From Psychroflexus planctonicus (lineage in GTDB: Bacteria; Bacteroidota; Bacteroidia; Flavobacteriales; Flavobacteriaceae), in assembly GCF_014640195.1 (NCBI RefSeq), contig NZ_BMGM01000003.1, positions 186,001-250,000 of the forward strand: a stretch of DNA of 64,000 nucleotides, read 5' to 3'. A model generated the notes under the pieces. That model saw nothing but the letters and a program-made list of their open reading frames with translations, did not search any database and had not been told where the DNA came from. Numbering within the stretch: position 1 is the first letter of the stretch; each line of letters begins with the position of its first letter. Both the position numbers and the translations under genes were made by a program. Of the stretch, positions 37,530 through 48,285 are shown piece by piece.

Positions 37530-39839
37530 ATGAAAATATATCATTTTATATTTATGGTGTTAGCAGCATTTCAGCTAAACGCCCAAGAAATTCAATATCA
37601 AATAATTGACCAATCTACAGGTCAACCTATCGCAGAAGCTTATATTACTTTTTTAAACGAAGACAAAAGTAGTTTTTCCGACAAAAATGGCTTTTTTGTA
37701 GTTGACTTTTCAAAACATGTCAAGCAGGATATTTCAATTACCTACTTAGGCTATAGAACCAAGTTTATTCAGCTTTTAAAAAATGAAAGTTCAAAGCTAA
37801 TTCGATTAGAAAAAGATCAAAATGAATTGGCAGAAGTTTTAATTACTGGAAAAGTGTTTCAAGATCCTGTAATGAGTATCACTACACCAGATTTAACCGA
37901 ACAAGTTACACAACCTAAAAATGTGGGTGATTTATTTAGAGACATTAATGGTTTTGGGCTAATTAAACGTGGAAATTACGCTATAGACCCATCATTTCGT
38001 GCTGCACAGTACGAGCAACTCAATATTCAATACGATGGCGGAACTAAAGTAATGCACGCATGCCCCAACCGTATGGACCCTATAACCACACATGTAATTC
38101 CTGAAGATATTTCAAAAATTGAAGTAGTTCGTGGCCCCTACACCATGCGTTACGGAGCAACTTTTGGAGGTTTAATAAACATGGTTTCTAAAAAACCAGA
38201 AATCGGAAATTACGGATTTTCAGGAAGCGCATCTACTGGTTATGAAACCAATGGAAACTCTTCTGTAAACATGCTTAGATTACAATATGCTGAAGAGAAA
38301 TTTGATGTAGTTGGCATGTACGGTTACCGAGATTTTGGTAATTATGAAGATGGAGCGGGAAGAGAAATTCCTTCTTCGTTTAGAAGCATCGATTACAGCT
38401 TCAGAATGGGATATAATTTTTCTAATGTAGAACGACTGCAGCTTCATTGGAGACAATCTTTTGGTAGAGATGTTTTACATGCTTCTTTGCCAATGGATTC
38501 AGATTATGATGATTCGTCTATGTTATCATTAGATTATTCTAAAAAAAGACATGGAAAAACACTTCAGAAAATTCAAGCCAAAGTTTACTATTCTTATGTA
38601 GACCACTTAATGAGCAATACTAGAAGAAGCAACTTTGCTATATCGGAAGCATCTTCGCCTGTTGAAGCTACCACAGCAGGTGGTCGAGTTGAGTTAGAAT
38701 GGAAATTAGCCGATTTTTGGACGCTTTTTACGGGAACTGATGCATTATTAATTAGTAGAGATGGAGTTAGGAATCGTTTGGTAAAACAAAACATGATGGG
38801 CATGCCACTCAACCCACCAATGGCTTTTACCGATAAAATATGGCAAGATGCTTACTTAAACGATTATGGTGTTTTTGCAGAATCACGTTACAAAATAAAT
38901 GCTTCTACTTTATTAAATGCTGGACTACGTTACGATTTAGTACATTCTGAAATTCAAGACCCTGAAGCAGATTTTCTAGCCTACTATCCAAATTTAGATA
39001 GCCGAACTGAGCATAACTTTAGTGCTACATTATCTTTAAAAAAACTGCTAAATGCCAACAATCAATTAGAATTTGCATTTGGTCGTGGCGTGCGTTCAGC
39101 GAATATGATTGAGCGAGCTATTAATCATTTTCAAGTAGGACAAGACCCATTTGAATATATAGGAAATCCAAATTTAGATGCCGAAGTAAACAACCAATTT
39201 GAAGTAGCTTATCAAGGTAAAAAACAATTTAATACTAACCTGAACACTATCAATTGGGGTGCTTCTGTGTATTTCTCTTATTTTGAAAATTATATTGTTG
39301 CCATAATCGATCCTACAAAAGATCGAAAATTTATGCCTAATCAAGAACCTGCAAACCCAAAAGTATTCAGAAATTTAGACAATGCTTACAAAACTGGATT
39401 TGAAGCTAACTTGGGAATTCAATTTTTTGAAAATTTTCAATTCAATGTAGAAACAGCCTATGTTTATGCTAGAAATGAAGATTTAAGCGAATCTTTACCA
39501 CTCACTCCTCCTCTACGAACCAAATTCAATTTACAGTTTAACAAAAATAAGTTCTGGAGTGCAATCGATTTACGCGTAATTAGCGAACAAGATAAATTAG
39601 CAACTTCGTTTGGAGAAAACCAAGCAACTCCTGGATACGAATTAATGGATATTAGGTTGGGTTATGAAGTTTTACCGAACCTTAATTTAGGAGCTGCTGT
39701 ATTGAATTTATTTGATACGCAGTATTTTGATCATTTAAACTTTGCATTCCGTAATCAAGCTGAAGCTGGTTTAAGTGGAATGGAACGTTTAACTGACCCA
39801 GGACGAAACTTTACTGTATTTTTAAAATATGATTTTTAG
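37530..39839 (+). CDS. TonB-dependent copper receptor (OprC-like)
   Basis: Outer-membrane receptor of 769 residues with signal peptide and a CarboxypepD_reg-like domain (about 20-95). The plug contains Cys178 and Met182 (HACPNRMDP, a CxxxM motif). The barrel carries His359 and Met361 (VDHLMSN, an HxM motif) and HASLPMD. The CxxxM-HxM set is what binds copper in Pseudomonas OprC, so copper import is a well-founded inference. The barrel ends in FTVFLKYDF. A strong bidirectional terminator follows. It is probably co-transcribed with the small Cys protein upstream. Confidence 0.88.
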   Translation: MKIYHFIFMVLAAFQLNAQEIQYQIIDQSTGQPIAEAYITFLNEDKSSFSDKNGFFVVDFSKHVKQDISITYLGYRTKFIQLLKNESSKLIRLEKDQNELAEVLITGKVFQDPVMSITTPDLTEQVTQPKNVGDLFRDINGFGLIKRGNYAIDPSFRAAQYEQLNIQYDGGTKVMHACPNRMDPITTHVIPEDISKIEVVRGPYTMRYGATFGGLINMVSKKPEIGNYGFSGSASTGYETNGNSSVNMLRLQYAEEKFDVVGMYGYRDFGNYEDGAGREIPSSFRSIDYSFRMGYNFSNVERLQLHWRQSFGRDVLHASLPMDSDYDDSSMLSLDYSKKRHGKTLQKIQAKVYYSYVDHLMSNTRRSNFAISEASSPVEATTAGGRVELEWKLADFWTLFTGTDALLISRDGVRNRLVKQNMMGMPLNPPMAFTDKIWQDAYLNDYGVFAESRYKINASTLLNAGLRYDLVHSEIQDPEADFLAYYPNLDSRTEHNFSATLSLKKLLNANNQLEFAFGRGVRSANMIERAINHFQVGQDPFEYIGNPNLDAEVNNQFEVAYQGKKQFNTNLNTINWGASVYFSYFENYIVAIIDPTKDRKFMPNQEPANPKVFRNLDNAYKTGFEANLGIQFFENFQFNVETAYVYARNEDLSESLPLTPPLRTKFNLQFNKNKFWSAIDLRVISEQDKLATSFGENQATPGYELMDIRLGYEVLPNLNLGAAVLNLFDTQYFDHLNFAFRNQAEAGLSGMERLTDPGRNFTVFLKYDF

Positions 39840-39914: not shown

Positions 39915-42032
39915 TTAGCTTTTTGAAATGCTTATTACAATTTGAGTCCCTAAAGGTAAATTGTTTTGGTCTTTTTTATCAATAACTTCAAAACTTAAGG
40001 TATTTGCATGCGTTTTATTATACAACTCAATACGTTCTTTTATGATTTGCATTCCCATACTTTTATGCGATTTGCTACGTTTAATTTTCATGCTCTCTTG
40101 TCTTCCAACCCCATTATCATCAATGTAAATTTTTGTTTGCTTTGGTTGAAAATCGACTTCAATATTTAGAAATTTTTCTTGATTTTCACTTAACAACAAG
40201 CCATGCCAAATGGCATTTTCTAAGAATGGTTGCAACAAAAGTGGCGGAATGAAAACCTTTTCTACTCCTGTTGAATCTTCACCTATTATTTTAAAAGTAA
40301 AATCTTTTTCAAAACGATTGCCTTCTAACATTAAATAGTTTCTGGTAAGTTGTAATTCATCTTTTAACGAAATTACTTGCTCTTTTGAAGTCTCTAATAC
40401 CATTCTTGTATACTTACTAAAAATCTTTAGGTATTTTATAGCTTTATAGTTTTGTTCACTCTGTATAAGATAAGTAATCGCGTTTAGGCTATTGAACAAA
40501 AAATGTGGATTAAGCCTTAGGCGAGAAACTAAGATTTCAGCTTGAGCTAAATTTCGCTCATAAATGGCATTCAATTTGTCTTTTTCTTCTTCAGCTAATT
40601 TAGCATTTATTCGTTTTCTAGTTTGGAAATTTCGATATTGTAAAATAAAAACCACAAGAATCAATACAAGGCCAATACCAAGTGAAATAGTTACAATTTC
40701 TCTTCGTTTAATTTTTTCTTCTTGCTTATCTAATAAGGCATTTTGTAATTCTTTATCTATTTCTAATAAAGCGATTTGGTTTTCTTTTTTATCTAAATCG
40801 TATTCACTTTTTATGGCTTCAATTTTAATTTTTTGTTCATTTAATTGAATACTATATTCATAGGATTTTGCAATTTTTAAATAAGATAAAGCTTCATTAT
40901 AATAGTTTTTGTTTTCATAAATTTTTGAAAGCGCTAAACTATTAGAGCTAATGAGTCCAAATTGATTCAATTCTTCTGCCAAATTAAGCGACTGTTTATA
41001 GTATGTCTCAGCTAAATTGCCTTTTTTCTGTTTTTTATATGCATCAGCAATCATATTAAGCAATTCGGATTGCTTGTGCTTGCTTCCAATTTTTTTAAAT
41101 TTGGCTAAAGATTCTTCAAAGTAAAAAACTGCTTTATTTAAATCTGTACCTTCATTCAAGTAACTTATTCCTAAAAATTCTTGAGTAATTGCCAAGCCAT
41201 ATAAATCATCCCTTTCTTCGTTGATTTCAATTAGTCTATCTAAATAACTTCTTGCTGTGATGTAGTCTTCTTTATTGATATAAAAATCGCTGATAGAAAG
41301 ATAATTCATCGCCATTCCCAAAGTATTATCGCGCTTTTTTTCGGCTTCCAAAGCACGTTGAAAGTATGCTAATGCTTCATCTTCTCTATCTTCAATTTGA
41401 GCCAATGTATTTCCAATTCCATTGCTGGAAATCGCGATGTTTCGCAAATTTTCTTCTTCTTCGGCAATCTTCAAAGCTTCTAAGTAAAAGGAAAGAGCGG
41501 TATCATAATTTTGATTATATCGTGCTGCAACTCCTGCATTGTTTGCAAAAATCATTTTATGTATAGGTTGCACATCTTTTTCTCTTACCAATTGAAATGC
41601 TTTTGCATGCAAATCGATAGCTTCATTATATTGTTCATGAAAACGATGCAATAAACCTGAGTTATCTAAAGCACGCGCGTACAACAATGTATCTTTTAGT
41701 TGAAGCGCCAAATCGATGGCGTTTTGCGCATGTTCATATTCTTCTGCTTGATCATGTTTATTTCGGTGGAGCGCTCTAGTGTATTTAATTTCATCTAAAA
41801 CCCGAAGTGAATCGTTGGTTTGTTGACTTAATGATTTCCGGATGCCATCTAACTTATCACCTTCCTGAGCCAAAAGACCACCAGATTGAAAAGCACAAAG
41901 GATAATAAACAATGATTTTATAAATAGACTTTTCTTTTTACTCAAAAAGGAATGCTTAGCGTCTAAAATTGAAAGATAAAAAATGAAAAAGAATTTTGAA
42001 AACATGGAAAAAGTTTTTGAAAAATACTTCAA
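39915..42032 (-). CDS. TPR-repeat sensor histidine kinase, LytS/HisKA_3-like (PF06580 type)
   Basis: 705 residues. After an N-terminal export signal (the true start may be the Met at residue 10) come about six TPR repeats (roughly 70-400), a coiled coil, one membrane helix (IVTISLGIGLVLILVVFIL), then the His_kinase domain with phospho-His in LRLNPHFLFNSLNAITYLI. The ATPase part follows (PPLLLQPFLENAIWHGLL, IDDNGVGRQESM). The partner of such kinases is a LytTR response regulator, but none is encoded next to it here. It is flanked by a terminator on its 3' side. Confidence 0.87.
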   Translation of the reverse strand: MKYFSKTFSMFSKFFFIFYLSILDAKHSFLSKKKSLFIKSLFIILCAFQSGGLLAQEGDKLDGIRKSLSQQTNDSLRVLDEIKYTRALHRNKHDQAEEYEHAQNAIDLALQLKDTLLYARALDNSGLLHRFHEQYNEAIDLHAKAFQLVREKDVQPIHKMIFANNAGVAARYNQNYDTALSFYLEALKIAEEEENLRNIAISSNGIGNTLAQIEDREDEALAYFQRALEAEKKRDNTLGMAMNYLSISDFYINKEDYITARSYLDRLIEINEERDDLYGLAITQEFLGISYLNEGTDLNKAVFYFEESLAKFKKIGSKHKQSELLNMIADAYKKQKKGNLAETYYKQSLNLAEELNQFGLISSNSLALSKIYENKNYYNEALSYLKIAKSYEYSIQLNEQKIKIEAIKSEYDLDKKENQIALLEIDKELQNALLDKQEEKIKRREIVTISLGIGLVLILVVFILQYRNFQTRKRINAKLAEEEKDKLNAIYERNLAQAEILVSRLRLNPHFLFNSLNAITYLIQSEQNYKAIKYLKIFSKYTRMVLETSKEQVISLKDELQLTRNYLMLEGNRFEKDFTFKIIGEDSTGVEKVFIPPLLLQPFLENAIWHGLLLSENQEKFLNIEVDFQPKQTKIYIDDNGVGRQESMKIKRSKSHKSMGMQIIKERIELYNKTHANTLSFEVIDKKDQNNLPLGTQIVISISKS

Positions 42033-42216: not shown

Positions 42217-43188
42217 TTAGTCTATTAAATCTACGTACTGCTTAACCGCATTTTTAATTTGATTGGCTAAGGCATTGTTCCCATCGGTATCTTCAGGACT
42301 AATTTCAATAATTCCATTTCCGTTTCCATCTGAAGCATTATTCATATCAACAGAATTGATAACACTCACTAAATCGAATTGAAAAGTAACTTGGTTATTG
42401 TTGTTTTCTGTAATTACTAAATTTTGTCCAGCATCTTCATAGTCAACTTCAAAATCTTCACTGAAGGTGTGATAAAATTCAAATGGCATTCCGTTTAAAG
42501 TCCCAGTCATTAACATTGATTTTTGGTATAACGGACTGTTAACATCAATTCCTCGTTCCATTTCAAACTCTACTTCTTCATATTCCGCAACAGGTATTTC
42601 TACTTCAACAATGGTGGTCGATTCGTTAGATAAATCAATTTCAAAAGGACCAAAAATTTTGTAGTCTTCATCATCATCGCTATCGTCGTCATAATCATCA
42701 TCATCTTCGCATCCGTCATCATCAAAATCGGTTGCGTAGAGACTAAAATCTTCTCTAAAATACAATTCTGTCCCGCTTTGCAATTCTACTTCATAACGGT
42801 AAGGATCGTCTAGGTCGTCTTCTAATTCTGCTTTACAAAAGGTATCGTTTGGATGGTTTTCGTTTACATAATCTTGAATTTCTTGGGGAAGTTCATCAAA
42901 ACTTAGGTGTTCGTCATCAACACTAGGAGATGAAATTCCTTGCCCAAAACCATCAGCAAATTCAAATTCAATTCGTGATATATTGAGCATGAATGATGCT
43001 ATTTCTAAATTTTCATTTATGTCCTTTGGTCTTCCTGACGATTGACTTGTTGCCCGAGAAGCTTCAATTGTAAGACTGGCTGCTTCGTAGTTTGACAAGT
43101 TTGGCGATGAACCCCCATCATCGTCTGATGAACAAGAGAAAAATACTAAGCTTAAACTGAAAAATAGGATTTTTGAAATCGTTTTCAT
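42217..43188 (-). CDS. PepSY-like lipoprotein with Asp-rich segment
   Basis: 323 residues with lipobox VFFSC (Cys19). Residues about 98-152 match the PepSY-like (DUF2874) pattern: ELPQEIQDYVNENHPNDTFCKAELE followed by YEVELQSGTELYFRED. Residues 154-176 are almost wholly Asp/Glu (DDDGCEDDDDYDDDSDDDED), suggestive of Ca2+ or other cation binding. The C-terminal half is beta-rich and not recognised. It has its own promoter with the GGTAGGGTA-N15-GTTTTACC element shared with the ECF sigma gene, so it is a likely component of that surface-signalling system. Confidence 0.75.
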   Translation of the reverse strand: MKTISKILFFSLSLVFFSCSSDDDGGSSPNLSNYEAASLTIEASRATSQSSGRPKDINENLEIASFMLNISRIEFEFADGFGQGISSPSVDDEHLSFDELPQEIQDYVNENHPNDTFCKAELEDDLDDPYRYEVELQSGTELYFREDFSLYATDFDDDGCEDDDDYDDDSDDDEDYKIFGPFEIDLSNESTTIVEVEIPVAEYEEVEFEMERGIDVNSPLYQKSMLMTGTLNGMPFEFYHTFSEDFEVDYEDAGQNLVITENNNNQVTFQFDLVSVINSVDMNNASDGNGNGIIEISPEDTDGNNALANQIKNAVKQYVDLID

Positions 43189-43210: not shown

Positions 43211-43242
43211 GGTAAAACAGGTTAAAAGTAATCTACCCTACC
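43211..43242 (-). promoter_or_regulatory. Predicted ECF promoter of PepSY lipoprotein gene (GGTAGGGTA-N15-GTTTTACC)
   Basis: On the minus strand the -35-like GGTAGGGTA is at 43242-43234 and the -10-like GTTTTACC at 43218-43211, separated by exactly 15 bp. The same element precedes the sigma gene. The -10 part ends 22 bp before the ATG. Confidence 0.7.
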
Positions 43243-43248
43243 TTTGTT

Positions 43249-44271
43249 TTAATTTTTTTCAAAAATAAAAATATCGTTACCATCTTCTAAAATAAATTGA
43301 TCGTTACCAAATTCAACAACTAACCAATCGTCATCAAGTTCTCCAAAAACCGAATCGGTAAAGTCTAAATTCAATTCCAAATCTCCATCATCTGCGTTTA
43401 TTTCCCATTCACCTGTGAAATTCATTTCAGTTTCTAAATTAAAAATGGAAATTACTCCACCTTCTAAAAAGGTAAATTCAAAATTTTCAAATTCCTGGGT
43501 TTCATCTTCACCATCATCCGTAAAGCTAGTAATGATAAAACTTTCATTCAAAATAAATTCTTCAAACTGAATATTGATTGGGCTGGGCTCAAACAAAATA
43601 GGACTAAAACAAGAAGCGTCTAAATTAGCAAAAGTAGTTTCTAATTGAGTGAGATTAGAAATACTTACTATGCTGTTTTCTACATTAACTTCAATAGGAT
43701 AGGAAAATTCAAAAAATCCATTTTGGTTTTGAAGCTGCTTCAAGTAATTATAAAATTGGGCTTTGTTTGAAAAACTTCTACTTTCTGCAACTTCATTTGA
43801 TAGGGTAAACGAATTGATTTGAAGTGGAAAAACAAATTCAATACAATTTATTTCAGATGAATTTTCTTCCAAAGAACTGATGTTTTCTAAATTTTCTGGT
43901 GTGGAAACTTCAAGGTTTTCATAATTAACTAAAGATACTTCCAATGGAAATTGAAACTGAATGCTGTAATTGGCGCCCAAGTTTTGCAATTCATTGATCA
44001 CCAATTGGTAGTCTTCTTCAGAAGTTAATTCAATAAATTCTCCACTGTTGATGCTTAATTGGTAGGGAAATTCAATTTTGGTGCTGCTGCTTCGGTCTAT
44101 AAAATCATCCAATGCAGTTGGGTTTTGCGTTGCTCTACTGATTAATTCTGCTAAACTTCCATTTGCTTCTATGCTGTTTTCCGAATCAAAATTTACCGAA
44201 AAATCATCACTTTGGCAAGAAGCTAAATGAAGTAGAATGAAGCAAAAAAATAACCAATAATGTTTTTTCAT
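43249..44271 (-). CDS. Lipoprotein with four internal repeats and lipocalin-like C-terminus
   Basis: 340 residues with lipobox HLASC (Cys19). Four repeats of about 32-37 residues start near 66, 104, 144 and 187. Each opens with a F-P-hydrophobic strand (IEFPYQLSINS, IQFQFPLEVSL, IEFVFPLQINS, FEFSYPIEVNV) and ends in a helix-like part. Residues about 228-340 are a beta-rich acidic domain with GEWEINADDGDLELNLDF, reminiscent of lipocalin-like proteins. Function unknown. Divergent from the ECF sigma gene, sharing a palindromic promoter with it. Confidence 0.72.
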   Translation of the reverse strand: MKKHYWLFFCFILLHLASCQSDDFSVNFDSENSIEANGSLAELISRATQNPTALDDFIDRSSSTKIEFPYQLSINSGEFIELTSEEDYQLVINELQNLGANYSIQFQFPLEVSLVNYENLEVSTPENLENISSLEENSSEINCIEFVFPLQINSFTLSNEVAESRSFSNKAQFYNYLKQLQNQNGFFEFSYPIEVNVENSIVSISNLTQLETTFANLDASCFSPILFEPSPINIQFEEFILNESFIITSFTDDGEDETQEFENFEFTFLEGGVISIFNLETEMNFTGEWEINADDGDLELNLDFTDSVFGELDDDWLVVEFGNDQFILEDGNDIFIFEKN

Positions 44272-44297
44272 TTTGTAAAATTAGATAATCTTGTAAT

Positions 44298-44360
44298 AAT
44301 TAAACAATCTAAATTTAATTTACCCTAAGGTAGGGTAAAATAATCTTCAGATGTTATACC
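44298..44360. promoter_or_regulatory. Divergent ECF promoters built on a TAGGGTA palindrome
   Basis: The inverted repeat TTTACCCTA / TAGGGTAAA (44319-44327 and 44331-44339) provides a -35-like element in each direction. Plus strand: GGTAGGGTA (44329-44337), 15 bp, GTTATACC (44353-44360), then the sigma ATG at 44377. Minus strand: TAGGGTA (44327-44321), 15 bp, GTTTAATT (44305-44298), then the lipoprotein ATG at 44271. The same spacer of 15 recurs at 43211-43242. Autoregulation by the encoded sigma factor is inferred. Confidence 0.72.
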
Positions 44361-44376
44361 AATAAGCAATTGCATA

Positions 44377-44895
44377 ATGATTAAAAAAATACCATCTCAA
44401 GTTTGTGAAAAAAAGGTATATCAAAATTTGTATTCGGAGCATGCACAAGTCTTGTTCAAACATTTTTACTACAAATTTGGAAATGTAGAATGGGCAGAAG
44501 ATGTCGTGCAAGAGTCGTTTATAAAACTTTGGAAAAAGTGTAAAGATGTTCCTCTACCAAAGGTAAAATCCTTTTTGTATACCGTCGCTAATAATTGGCT
44601 GATTAACAAACACCACCATGAAAAGGTAAAATTAAAATACAAAAATGATTACCAAGGAAGAACGGAAGATGAGCAAACTCCTTTGTATGTATTGGAAGAA
44701 GAAGAATTTAAAACGCGTTTGCTTTCCGCTATAAACAAGTTAAGCCCAAAGCAACGAAGTGTTTTTTTACTACATCGCATAGATGATAAAAGCTATAGAG
44801 AAATAGCAGAAATTGAACAGATTAGCATTAAAGCAGTAGAAAAAAGAATGAGCAATGCGCTAAAAAGTTTGCGTAATGTTATTGAAAACATTTAG
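44377..44895 (+). CDS. FecI-like ECF RNA polymerase sigma factor
   Basis: 172 residues. Region 2 is seen in FYYKFGNVEWAEDVVQESFIKLWKKC and region 4 in LSPKQRSVFLLHRIDDKSYREIAEIEQISIKAVEKRMSNALKSL. Released by the downstream FecR-type anti-sigma when the TonB receptor is loaded, it would direct transcription of this locus. Stop codon is 2 bp from the fecR-like start. Confidence 0.93.
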   Translation: MIKKIPSQVCEKKVYQNLYSEHAQVLFKHFYYKFGNVEWAEDVVQESFIKLWKKCKDVPLPKVKSFLYTVANNWLINKHHHEKVKLKYKNDYQGRTEDEQTPLYVLEEEEFKTRLLSAINKLSPKQRSVFLLHRIDDKSYREIAEIEQISIKAVEKRMSNALKSLRNVIENI

Positions 44896-44897
44896 TT

Positions 44898-45785
44898 ATG
44901 GAAGAAAATTACAAATTAGCAAAATGGTTAGATAACCAAATTCCTGACCGTGAAATGCAAGATTTGGAAGGCTTTGACACCTACCAAAAAATCAAAAAAA
45001 TTAGTCAGGATTTAGCTGCTCCTAATCTAAACGAAGAAAAAACCTTTCAACAAATTGAATTCAGGAATATACAGCAAAAATCAAATTTCAAGGTTTTTTA
45101 CAAATTTGCAGCAGCACTAGCCTTACTTGTTGGTGTGGCATCGTTTTCTCTTTTCTTTGCTGCCAAAGAAGTGGTAACCCTAAGCCAAACACAAAAAATT
45201 GAATTACCTGACCAATCCAAAATTCAGCTTGCAGCAAATTCGCAATTGCAATACAACGCTTTAACATGGTGGTTCAACAGAGATGTAAGTTTGAATGGAA
45301 AAGCCTATTTTGAAGTAGAAAAAGGCAGTACATTTAATGTTGAAACTCCACTTGGTTTAGTACAGGTTTTAGGAACTAAATTTGAAGTAGATGCAACAGA
45401 AAATCAATTCAGTGTTCGCTGTTTTGAAGGAAAAGTAAAAGTAATTACCAATCAACATCAGGAAATTCTTGAAGCAAATGAATCTGTTTTCATCTCAAAC
45501 AAAAATGAATTAAAAAAAGAGTTTATACCATACAATCAGCCTTTTTGGACAGATGCACATGTTCAATTAAATGCAGCTGAATTGAAAAAAGTGGTAAAAT
45601 TATTAGAAAAGCATTTTAATATAGAAATCGATATTTCAACAATTTCAAAAGAAAAACAATTCAGTGGAAAACTAAGCACTCAGGATTTAAAAGAAAACTT
45701 TGAAATCATTTCATCAACTTATCAATTTAAAATCGAGCAAGTCAACAAGAATAAATATATTTTTGTTGAAGATGAAGAAAACTAA
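44898..45785 (+). CDS. FecR-like anti-sigma regulator
   Basis: 295 residues. A short cytoplasmic N-terminus (~70) is followed by one membrane helix (KFAAALALLVGVASFSLFFAA). A periplasmic FecR domain follows (IELPDQSKIQLAANSQLQYN... GKAYFEVEKGSTFNVETPLGLVQVLGTKFEV). A DUF4974 domain ends the protein (AAELKKVVKLLEKHFNIEIDI). It passes the receptor signal to the sigma factor. Its 3' end overlaps the receptor gene by 14 bp. Confidence 0.93.
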   Translation: MEENYKLAKWLDNQIPDREMQDLEGFDTYQKIKKISQDLAAPNLNEEKTFQQIEFRNIQQKSNFKVFYKFAAALALLVGVASFSLFFAAKEVVTLSQTQKIELPDQSKIQLAANSQLQYNALTWWFNRDVSLNGKAYFEVEKGSTFNVETPLGLVQVLGTKFEVDATENQFSVRCFEGKVKVITNQHQEILEANESVFISNKNELKKEFIPYNQPFWTDAHVQLNAAELKKVVKLLEKHFNIEIDISTISKEKQFSGKLSTQDLKENFEIISSTYQFKIEQVNKNKYIFVEDEEN

Positions 45786-48285
45786 AAACATACTTTTCCT
45801 TTTTTGTTTTATTGCGCTTAGCCAATTTGCGAGTAGTCAAAAGCTTATTGAAGGCAAGGCAATTTTTAAGCAACTCGAAAATCGGTTTCAGGTAAATTTT
45901 AATTATTTACCAGAAGATGCACAATCCTTTGAAGTACCTGAAAGTTTATTGAAAAGTAGCTCATCTTTAGAAGAAATTATCTATTTTATTGAATTACATA
46001 CCTACTCCAACATCACTGAATACAAAGATGGGTATTACAATATAACTTCTTATACCTATGATTTTTGCTTTCAATTCATCAATTTGATAAATGAAAAGGA
46101 AGTTTCTGATTTAGCATTGATCATCAACCAAAACGTGGAAGCAAAAACCAACACCGTTGGAAAAGTGTTTGTCAATAATTTAAAACAAATTGATCACATT
46201 CAATTGAGGTCTTCTGCTTACGAATTGGAAAATACACCTACACAGTTTTCAAAAAGTAAGCGCTGTCAAACGGTGTATGTTATTCAAAATGAAACGCTAG
46301 ATGAAATATTCATTGTGGATTATTTAGCCAAAGGAATTCGTTTGCAAAACGACCAAGGCATTGAAATTAACCCAAAGGAATTCGGAAGCCTACCAGGATT
46401 GATTAATCCTGATGTTTTCCATAGTTTACAATATGTTCCAGGTGTTTTAAGTCCCACGGAGAGCATTTCAGAAATCAACACCCGAGGTGGAACGCACGAC
46501 CAAAATTTAATTTTATGGAATGGAGCAAGAATGTACCAAACAGGTCATTTTTTTGGGATGATTTCTGCCTTGAATCCATTTTCGTTGCATGAAGTTTCGG
46601 TCTATAAAAACGGGAGTTCTGCACGCTATGGCGAAGGAGTTTCTTCAGTGATGAACATCAACACATTTTCAAGTTTTGAAGAAAACCATCAAACAACAAT
46701 GCATGCTAATTTACTCAGTGGAAGCTTTTCTACCCAGCAAAAAATAAATAACCGATTTCAAATTCAAGCATCTGCTCGCTATTCGTTTACCGATTTTTTG
46801 AATTCAATTACCTATCAAAATTTTTCTGATCGTGTTTTTCAGAATACAGCCGTTACCGAAAATGCTTCAAATGAAGTTTTTATACAAGAACAAGGTTTCT
46901 TTTTTAGAGATGTATCATTTGAAATGCAATGCCAACCCGATGAAAAAAATCATTTCAAACTTGGTTTCATGGCATTCGAAAATCAATTGAATTTTGATGA
47001 AACTTCAACCGACGAAATGCGAACTGCATCTAACCTTTTAGAGCAAAAAAATGCATTGGCAGTTGCTTCTTGGAAACACCAGTGGAATGAAAAACAGGAG
47101 AGCAAAATCAATACAACTGCTTCTTATTACAATTTATTTGCAAAAGATGCTTCCCCTACATCTTCTCAAATTTTAAATCAAGAAAATGAAGTTTTAGATT
47201 TAGGGCTTCAACTGCAACACAAAATTCAATTGAATGAAAATGGAAACCTGCTATTGGGTTATAATTTTCAAGAGATAGGCGTAAGCAATTCCAATATTGT
47301 AAATCAACCTAATATTGAAATTGTAGACCAGAAAATTTTACATATTCATTCGGCATTTGCTGAAACCAAATTTTATTTCTTGAATAGTTTTGAAGCTACT
47401 TTAGGATTGAGAACAAATTACTACTCAAGGATAAATGAAGCTGTTTTTGAACCCAGGCTAAATTTGAATTACCGTTTCAATAATGGTCATAAATTATTTA
47501 TTTTGGGGCAAATAAAGCACCAAAGTTTAAGTCAAGTTATCGACCAACAAGAAGATTTTTTTGGAATTGAAAAAAGAAGATGGACGCTTAATAACAATAA
47601 TGATTTTCAATTGGCAAAAAGCCATCAAATTGAAGTGGGTTGGAATTTCAATCAGCAAAATTGGTTGCTACAAACCAACTTGTACTACAAAACAGTTATG
47701 GGTTTAAATTCCAGTAGCCAAGGGTTTCAAAACCAATTGGAAAACGTAAATATCATAGGAGATTACACTGCTTTTGGCTGGGAAGCTTTAGTACAGAAAA
47801 AGTGGAGAAATTGGCGCGTGTGGAGCAACTTTGCCTTAACCCAAAACAATTATGAATTTTCAGCATTTACACCTTCCGTATTTCCGAATAATTTTGAGTT
47901 AAGTCTAAGCAATGCAAGCGGAATTACTTTTGAAAATAATGGCTATTCTCTTTCCTTAGGTAGTAGGTTTCATACAGGCAAACCCACTACAGGAATAAAT
48001 GAAAATAGCCCAATTTTAGATCCAGATATCAATCCATCCATAAATTTCTTGTCACCAAATACAGATAATTTACCGGTTTATTTTCAAGTTAACGCAAGTG
48101 CTTCAAAGCAAATTGAATTCCAAAAAAGTCAACTCCAGTTTGGTTTGAGCTTGATGAATGTATTCAACTTAAACACTGAACTAAACCAATTTTATCAACT
48201 CAATGAAGATGCAACTCAAGTAGAAAATCGTATACTTCAAAACTTAGCTTTTACACCAAACGCGTTTGTAAGTTTTATTTTTTAG
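45772..48285 (+). CDS. FecA-like TonB-dependent transducer with STN domain
   Basis: Outer-membrane receptor of 837 residues from ATG at 45772, chosen because it starts a signal peptide (MKKTKNILFLFCFIALSQFA). An upstream in-frame start would lie deeper within fecR. An N-terminal STN signalling domain (about 25-85) follows, then a carboxypeptidase-regulatory-like region, plug (FHSLQYVPGVLSP... INTRGGTHDQNLILWNGARMY... SARYGEGVSSVMNIN) and barrel ending AFVSFIF. With sigma and FecR it forms a complete surface-signalling set. The substrate is unknown. Confidence 0.88.
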   Translation: MKKTKNILFLFCFIALSQFASSQKLIEGKAIFKQLENRFQVNFNYLPEDAQSFEVPESLLKSSSSLEEIIYFIELHTYSNITEYKDGYYNITSYTYDFCFQFINLINEKEVSDLALIINQNVEAKTNTVGKVFVNNLKQIDHIQLRSSAYELENTPTQFSKSKRCQTVYVIQNETLDEIFIVDYLAKGIRLQNDQGIEINPKEFGSLPGLINPDVFHSLQYVPGVLSPTESISEINTRGGTHDQNLILWNGARMYQTGHFFGMISALNPFSLHEVSVYKNGSSARYGEGVSSVMNINTFSSFEENHQTTMHANLLSGSFSTQQKINNRFQIQASARYSFTDFLNSITYQNFSDRVFQNTAVTENASNEVFIQEQGFFFRDVSFEMQCQPDEKNHFKLGFMAFENQLNFDETSTDEMRTASNLLEQKNALAVASWKHQWNEKQESKINTTASYYNLFAKDASPTSSQILNQENEVLDLGLQLQHKIQLNENGNLLLGYNFQEIGVSNSNIVNQPNIEIVDQKILHIHSAFAETKFYFLNSFEATLGLRTNYYSRINEAVFEPRLNLNYRFNNGHKLFILGQIKHQSLSQVIDQQEDFFGIEKRRWTLNNNNDFQLAKSHQIEVGWNFNQQNWLLQTNLYYKTVMGLNSSSQGFQNQLENVNIIGDYTAFGWEALVQKKWRNWRVWSNFALTQNNYEFSAFTPSVFPNNFELSLSNASGITFENNGYSLSLGSRFHTGKPTTGINENSPILDPDINPSINFLSPNTDNLPVYFQVNASASKQIEFQKSQLQFGLSLMNVFNLNTELNQFYQLNEDATQVENRILQNLAFTPNAFVSFIF

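Follow-up and report, generated by a model that had tools for sequence, protein, structure and literature searches.

The closest precedent for the locus described here is the HasI-HasS-HasR haem-signalling system of Serratia. In the part of the source drawn on here, HasI is not autoregulated and drives transcription of hasS, the gene for a FecR-like regulator (PMC9249621). The same logic is seen in most relatives of our locus, where a promoter stands between the sigma gene and fecR, though no link of the locus to iron or haem was found. Unlike in HasI-HasS-HasR, the sigma factor studied here also appears to drive a divergent gene for a repeat lipoprotein, and in the lineage that we analysed the candidate promoter precedes the sigma gene itself. 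The locus also resembles FecI-FecR-FecA of E. coli in having an ECF sigma factor, a FecR regulator and a receptor with a plug domain. In that system, according to the same excerpted source, there is no autoregulation of fecIR, and fecA is driven by FecI (PMC9249621), whereas here the sigma, fecR and receptor genes form one operon with the element before the sigma gene.

ECF promoters have likewise been predicted in the same family in Flavobacterium psychrophilum SM6, where the sections cited describe a CGT box in the −10 and place the promoters before T9SS genes and an ECF/anti-sigma pair (PMC9723704). No TAGGGT −35 is mentioned in the text of those sections. The Dma/Das dual-membrane anti-sigma pairs of Bacteroides are another case of ECF envelope signalling in the Bacteroidota; as presented in the portion cited, they belong to the ECF21 family and have an anti-sigma factor spanning both membranes (PMC13088901), whereas our locus has a separate FecR and receptor. 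A literature search, judged from titles and the beginnings of abstracts, found no report of the element described below. Surface signalling of the FecI/HasI kind is known; what appears to be new is a variant of it with a TAGGGTA-N15-GTTWWA element and a promoter that shifts to the sigma gene. We propose, with a probability of roughly 88%, that three copies of this element are promoters recognised by the ECF sigma factor whose gene lies between them, which would serve a small envelope regulon in a FecI/HasI-like circuit.

Results

Three elements around one ECF sigma gene

The window, meaning the whole stretch of DNA analysed, is 64 kb from Psychroflexus planctonicus. It contains three matches to TAGGGTA-N15-GTTWWA where 0.03 would be expected, and none of 100 shuffles reached three. 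Element S (TAGGGTA-N15-GTTATA; 44331..44358, forward strand) has its end 18 nt from the sigma ATG and is predicted to be the ECF promoter from which sigma, fecR and receptor are transcribed as one operon. Element D (TAGGGTA-N15-GTTTAA; 44300..44327, reverse strand) is predicted as the promoter of the divergent gene for a repeat lipoprotein, with 28 nt between its end and the ATG, and the third element (TAGGGTA-N15-GTTTTA; 43213..43240, reverse strand), 24 nt from the ATG of a gene for a PepSY-like lipoprotein, is the predicted promoter of that gene. The earlier note, which had described three bipartite elements with an N15 spacer before these genes, was correct in all their positions.

A search of the whole genome (3,113,709 bases) for the same pattern gave three exact matches, the same three as in the window. 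The reversed-pattern control also gave three, so that the genome-wide exact count is at chance level and by itself proves nothing; what chance does not explain is that the three matches cluster in 1.15 kb at a single ECF sigma gene. When TAGGGTW and up to one mismatch were allowed, there were 39 matches in the genome versus 111 for the reversed control. Weak matches are therefore inseparable from noise and a wider regulon is unreadable from the organism's own genome; a larger regulon in P. planctonicus was rejected on these counts.

Promoters of the ECF type typically have a −35 box with an AAC core. The elements have the two boxes, the fixed spacer and the GT core of the −10 that are typical of such promoters (the GTT was required by the search, the RNYT flank was not). 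Their −35 is TAGGGT, with TAGGA or CAGGA in paralogues, and does not contain the AAC core. The suggestion that elements S and D are built on one palindrome did not hold, as they are two −35 boxes placed back to back, 3 bp apart. In 12 loci of the genus the gap between the boxes is 4, 5, 9 (nine loci) or 45 bp; because it varies, the palindrome is not conserved and is incidental, and a palindromic operator is ruled out. Similarly, GGTAGGGTA as the −35 was rejected, since its leading GG, included in the earlier description, is not conserved in the 12 genus loci and is incidental.

The gene between the elements encodes, as had been claimed, an ECF sigma factor (44377..44895, forward strand; 172 aa) with Sigma70_r2 (PF04542, 37.7 bits, cut-off 24) and Sigma70_r4_2 (PF08281, 63.2 bits, cut-off 25.7) domains and the region-4 helix SIKAVEKRMS. 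Its score of 83.6 against TIGR02937, versus a cut-off of 42.9, places it among the ECF sigma factors. The best family match is TIGR02985 (Sig70_bacteroi1), but at 117.7 bits this is under the curated cut-off of 126.4 and the protein is therefore termed TIGR02985-like only. The adjoining gene, as in systems of the FecI-FecR-FecA type, encodes a FecR-like sigma regulator (44898..45785, forward strand; 295 aa) with FecR and FecR_C domains (PF04773, 68.3 bits; PF16344, 36.5 bits; both above cut-off). It starts 2 nt past the sigma stop codon, which leaves no space for the promoter that most relatives have there. Next comes an outer-membrane receptor with a TonB plug domain (45772..48285, forward strand; 837 aa from the second possible start). 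No STN signalling domain was detected in the window receptor at E-values up to 0.5, the N-terminal domain being matched in relatives only: across ten receptor N-termini at this threshold STN was matched in four (best 2.2e-7) and FecR_C in seven (best 3e-11), and the window protein matched nothing.

The repeat lipoprotein (43249..44271, reverse strand; 340 aa) has no Pfam match. AlphaFold2, given 37 sequences, models it with a mean pLDDT of 90.4 as four repeats of the form strand-strand-strand-helix with a C-terminal barrel, for which a Bacteroides lipocalin-like protein is the best, though weak, match in the PDB (E 2e-3). A lectin-like Laminin_G_3 domain is matched by 5 of the 37 repeat lipoproteins. 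The PepSY-like lipoprotein (42217..43188, reverse strand; 323 aa) scores 26 bits against PepSY_like, below the cut-off of 28.3, and a relative (L290) is sub-threshold for both DUF4382 (21.5, cut-off 25) and PepSY_like (20, cut-off 28.3). Confidence in the model of the window's own protein is moderate (mean pLDDT 73.7). Its closest PDB entries, DUF2874-type and comparable proteins of the periplasm with BT0923 among them, match weakly, the top three at E 1.2e-3 to 1.5e-2. Also nearby are genes for a TPR protein with a LytS-like His_kinase domain (39915-42032, reverse strand) and for a TonB-dependent receptor (37530-39839, forward strand). The window has no exact element beyond the three.

Conservation of the element among relatives

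Relatives were collected by scanning contigs with an alignment of 16 sigma sequences. Of 577 confirmed loci the best 80 were used, almost all of which carry the label Flavobacteriaceae or Flavobacteriales. Around the sigma genes of these 80 there are 94 exact elements with a spacer of 15 and none with a spacer of 13, 14, 16 or 17, which agrees with the invariant 15-bp spacer claimed earlier. Elements with one mismatch number 60 at spacer 15 and 2, 2, 33 and 23 at 13, 14, 16 and 17, where the counts at 16 and 17 may include elements with a spacer of 15 that were matched in a shifted register. Of the reversed pattern the same best 80 loci contain no exact copy; with one mismatch it occurs 5, 3, 1, 2 and 3 times at spacers of 13, 14, 15, 16 and 17. 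With one mismatch allowed, at least one copy is present in 80 of the best 80, so the element is conserved at orthologous sigma loci, a point on which the earlier note had staked its proposal.

At the same tolerance, the slot before fecR is filled in 71 of the best 80 of 577 loci, and the slot before the divergent, mostly lipoprotein, gene is also filled in 71. Divergent and fecR slots are filled together in 62 loci, fecR alone in eight, divergent alone in four, divergent and sigma in four, and sigma alone in one; a single locus (L174) has all three, with a sigma-slot copy at −228 that looks spurious. The frequency with which the fecR slot is filled suggests that fecR and the receptor are the core targets. 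The copies before fecR mostly end 18-23 nt from the start codon in the best 80 of 577, and in 66 distinct fecR elements the positions just 5' of GTT, which the search did not use, are R in 97%, Y in 95% and T in 94%. In L197 fecR is preceded by three copies in tandem; two of these are identical to each other and have one mismatch.

An ORF of at least 60 aa follows 66 of the 74 divergent copies, the other eight being dropped for want of one. By iterated profile search, and with the window included, 58 of 67 divergent target entries (two genes are counted twice) belong to one lipoprotein family. In L178 (G204, also L122) and L202 the divergent copy precedes a gene that by eye is for a secreted thioredoxin-like protein, in place of the repeat lipoprotein; the gene that follows it in L122 resembles, again by eye, an ApbE flavin transferase.

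Copies before sigma and before fecR

A copy within 150 nt before the sigma gene was found in 5 of the best 80 of 577 relatives, and such copies are seen in the genus of the window and in two other loci. We covered the genus with 27 genomes, 20 of which have a sigma match at E 1e-40. Allowing one mismatch, nine of these 20 loci have copies before both sigma and fecR, while eight, including the window, have a sigma copy without such a fecR copy, so that the sigma gene is preceded by its own element in 17 of 20. As for the rest, L255 and L256 are of a sister paralogue class and L252 has neither copy; the absence of any copy at up to one mismatch in L252 counts against the promoter reading. The fecR copy persists with a damaged −10 in L250 and L251 and with a 14-bp spacer in L253. 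In the window it is absent, having been lost in the window's lineage.

Autoregulation had been put forward from element S. In the window and its genus there is indeed an element before the sigma gene and, judged by this arrangement, the window sigma factor appears to switch on its own gene, a feedback that we infer. As a general rule, however, autoregulation is ruled out, as the copy of most relatives lies between sigma and fecR (a sigma copy in 5 versus a fecR copy in 71 of the best 80 of 577). A tree was made from sigma and FecR by a quick method (94 rows, from which L241, three duplicates and the FecR-less loci L155 and L207 are excluded), with 25 of its 91 inner branches open. On this tree the sigma copy needs at least three changes, which fits gains in the genus, in L162 and in L206. 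The copy before sigma is, on this comparison, a derived state. The simplest history of the genus would be a promoter before fecR alone, then before both genes, and then before sigma alone. Since the fecR copy is missing in the window's lineage, sigma, fecR and receptor form one operon there that the sigma factor itself should drive, and the loss is in this respect an alteration of the predicted circuit.

The housekeeping promoter consensus is TAnnTTTG in the sections cited of PMC9723704. Among the 75 of the best 80 of 577 loci that have no sigma copy, 55 have this motif within 130 nt 5' of the sigma gene, often about 30 nt from the start, versus 6.1 expected from single-base shuffling. It was found in none of the five loci with a sigma copy in that set (0.6 expected) and not in the window. 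Inside the genus the housekeeping swap is not clean, since 6 of 12 loci with a sigma copy still match TAnnTTTG upstream; in L243, L248 and L121 the match lies inside the sigma element.

The PepSY-like gene and other candidate targets

All 13 PepSY-like homologues found in the genus by protein similarity, window included, are preceded by the element, nine by an exact copy and four by a copy with one mismatch. The copy is kept both in the gene orientation of the window and where the gene is inverted, the start lying 2.7-4.0 kb 5' of sigma. Further homologues (G253, G263, G265; L241) came via the element itself and are biased as evidence. Taken with the 58 of 67 divergent targets, the 13 homologues favour the earlier claim that the sigma factor would control two lipoproteins outside its operon. 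In the genus genome G265 (L293, L326) a PepSY-like gene has the element although no sigma match reaches E 1e-40. The ten ECF loci of this genome are at most 30% identical to the sigma factor, and no fecR, receptor or repeat lipoprotein match was found at them or in 18 kb around the PepSY gene. The element of G265 may be a relic or may have another reader.

In L244 an element also precedes a gene for a DUF4382 lipoprotein (E 9e-29), and in L253 a one-mismatch copy precedes a gene that by eye resembles it. Across the genus TAGGGTW-N14-TGTTWWA occurs 51 times in the 20 genomes with the sigma factor (reversed control 10) and 5 times in the 7 without it (control 3). In one set of loci (L284, L285, L286, L287, L289) elements that two species share lie close to a 176-aa lipoprotein gene, and elements that three species share lie 112-115 nt before a 173-aa gene; these are possible further targets. 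The extra-locus matches read in genomes of other genera (G204, G212, G026, G072) precede assorted genes, with two inside ORFs, and form no clear regulon.

The −35 box among paralogues

The genome of P. planctonicus has 12 TIGR02985-like ECF loci at E 1e-8, and an element with up to one mismatch was found within 1.5 kb of one of the 12. A sister system in the same genome (C2:144598-145110) has the sigma helix SKKAVEKRIY and two elements that begin TAGGAAT and TAGGACA, with spacer and −10 as in the window elements. In the best 30 paralogue loci a second class has TAGGA as its −35 and a third has CAGGA, with spacer and −10 kept, and adjacent paralogues in one genome may differ in the −35 box (G105 C58, for example). 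Helix and −35 were tallied over 126 loci, 19 of them skipped as uncalled, using a search that left the differing −35 position free. Where the residue after EKRx (EYRx in class C) is H, S or Q, all 128 elements have GGG (127 TAGGG and 1 AAGGG); where it is Y, there are 54 elements, 50 with GGA and 4 with GGGA. Few clades, and so few independent changes, lie behind this association, which makes it strong as a pattern and weak as a set of independent events. The idea that the residue following Ser in the helix alone sets the −35 was ruled out, as L146 combines Thr at this site with TAGGGT; the residue after EKRx fits the −35 type better. That the −35 changes in step with the recognition helix argues that sigma region 4 reads the −35 box.

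Could the element be read by a different ECF sigma factor of the cell, or by several? The 12 ECF loci provide candidates, and cross-talk is possible given that −10 and spacer are common to paralogue classes A, B and C; but the other 11 loci of the genome have no element at up to one mismatch within 1.5 kb, and the paralogues carry their own versions of the −35, which makes this reading improbable. Less probable still is that the element is not a promoter and serves instead as the operator of some other transcription factor, one that has evolved together with the locus. The G265 genome, with its element before the PepSY gene and no close sigma factor, fits such an operator, whereas the fixed orientation, the nearly fixed distance to the fecR start codon in the best 80 of 577 loci, and the ECF-like layout of two boxes and a constant spacer do not, and it is the −35 half alone that changes with the recognition helix among paralogues while the −10 stays. 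The covariation of the −35 makes both another sigma factor and another transcription factor a poor fit. Chance, or shared ancestry of a functionless intergenic stretch, is hardly credible, for although the exact genome matches equal the reversed-pattern control, two separate slots are conserved across genera while the spacer letters vary, and both the spacer counts (94 exact at 15 and none at four others in the best 80 of 577) and the retention of the element before the inverted PepSY gene contradict it. We thus prefer the reading of the elements as promoters of the sigma factor encoded between them; that TAGGGTA-N15-GTTWWA is probably the recognition sequence of this FecI-like protein, as proposed earlier, is backed by its conservation, the fixed spacer, its presence at one of 12 ECF loci and the −35 covariation.

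Occurrence outside the family

Among 295 sampled genomes of the class, 36 have a sigma match at E 1e-30, 28 of them outside the family. Twelve of the out-of-family loci were read: L368 has an exact fecR copy; inspection by eye shows a near copy in L369, where it immediately follows the sigma stop codon, a partial copy in L370 and, in L367, the TAGGA form that its helix predicts. No element was found in L363, L371-L374 and L376 despite a very similar helix motif, nor in L375 and L377. The six loci with a similar helix and no element count against the promoter reading, and the out-of-family negatives lowered our confidence in it slightly. As most of the out-of-family loci read have no element, it is a family-level feature with a few cases beyond.

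Discussion

From features read in the sequences themselves, namely the positions of the elements, their conservation, the spacer, the covariation and the slot changes, we infer how the sigma factor may bind and transcribe, how the signal may be relayed and fed back, and what part the lipoproteins may play. TAGGGT would be the −35 box, read by sigma region 4, and RNYTGTTWTA an extended −10 for region 2, while the TAGGGTW and GTTWWA blocks stand a constant 15 bp apart. FecR would hold the sigma factor at the inner membrane, and an outer-membrane receptor with an N-terminal signalling domain would relay an external signal. The freed sigma factor would then transcribe a small regulon of the repeat lipoprotein, the PepSY-like lipoprotein and fecR-receptor. 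In the ancestral circuit of the family the sigma gene was presumably on a housekeeping promoter with fecR-receptor under the sigma factor; in the window's genus a copy would have arisen before the sigma gene, and in the window's own lineage the fecR copy would have gone.

We lean towards a wider proposal that joins two parts. The paralogous surface-signalling sigma factors of the Flavobacteriaceae would keep −10 and spacer constant and be insulated by the −35 alone (TAGGGT, TAGGA or CAGGA), which tracks H/S/Q or Y after EKRx; and in one of them the promoter would have passed more than once from fecR to sigma, in the genus via an intermediate with two copies. If this is true, a circuit in which the inhibitor and receptor are induced becomes, through the handover of the promoter, one that amplifies itself.

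To our knowledge, few promoters have been assigned to ECF sigma factors of the Bacteroidota. The locus yields a candidate recognition sequence, a minimal regulon and a set of paralogues for testing −35 specificity, and it predicts targets of the orthologous sigma factors across the family. Loci found in nature represent every step in the shift of a promoter from regulator to sigma gene, and with them the effect of feedback wiring on signalling could be tested directly. The paralogues could also supply orthogonal promoter-sigma pairs for Bacteroidota genetics.
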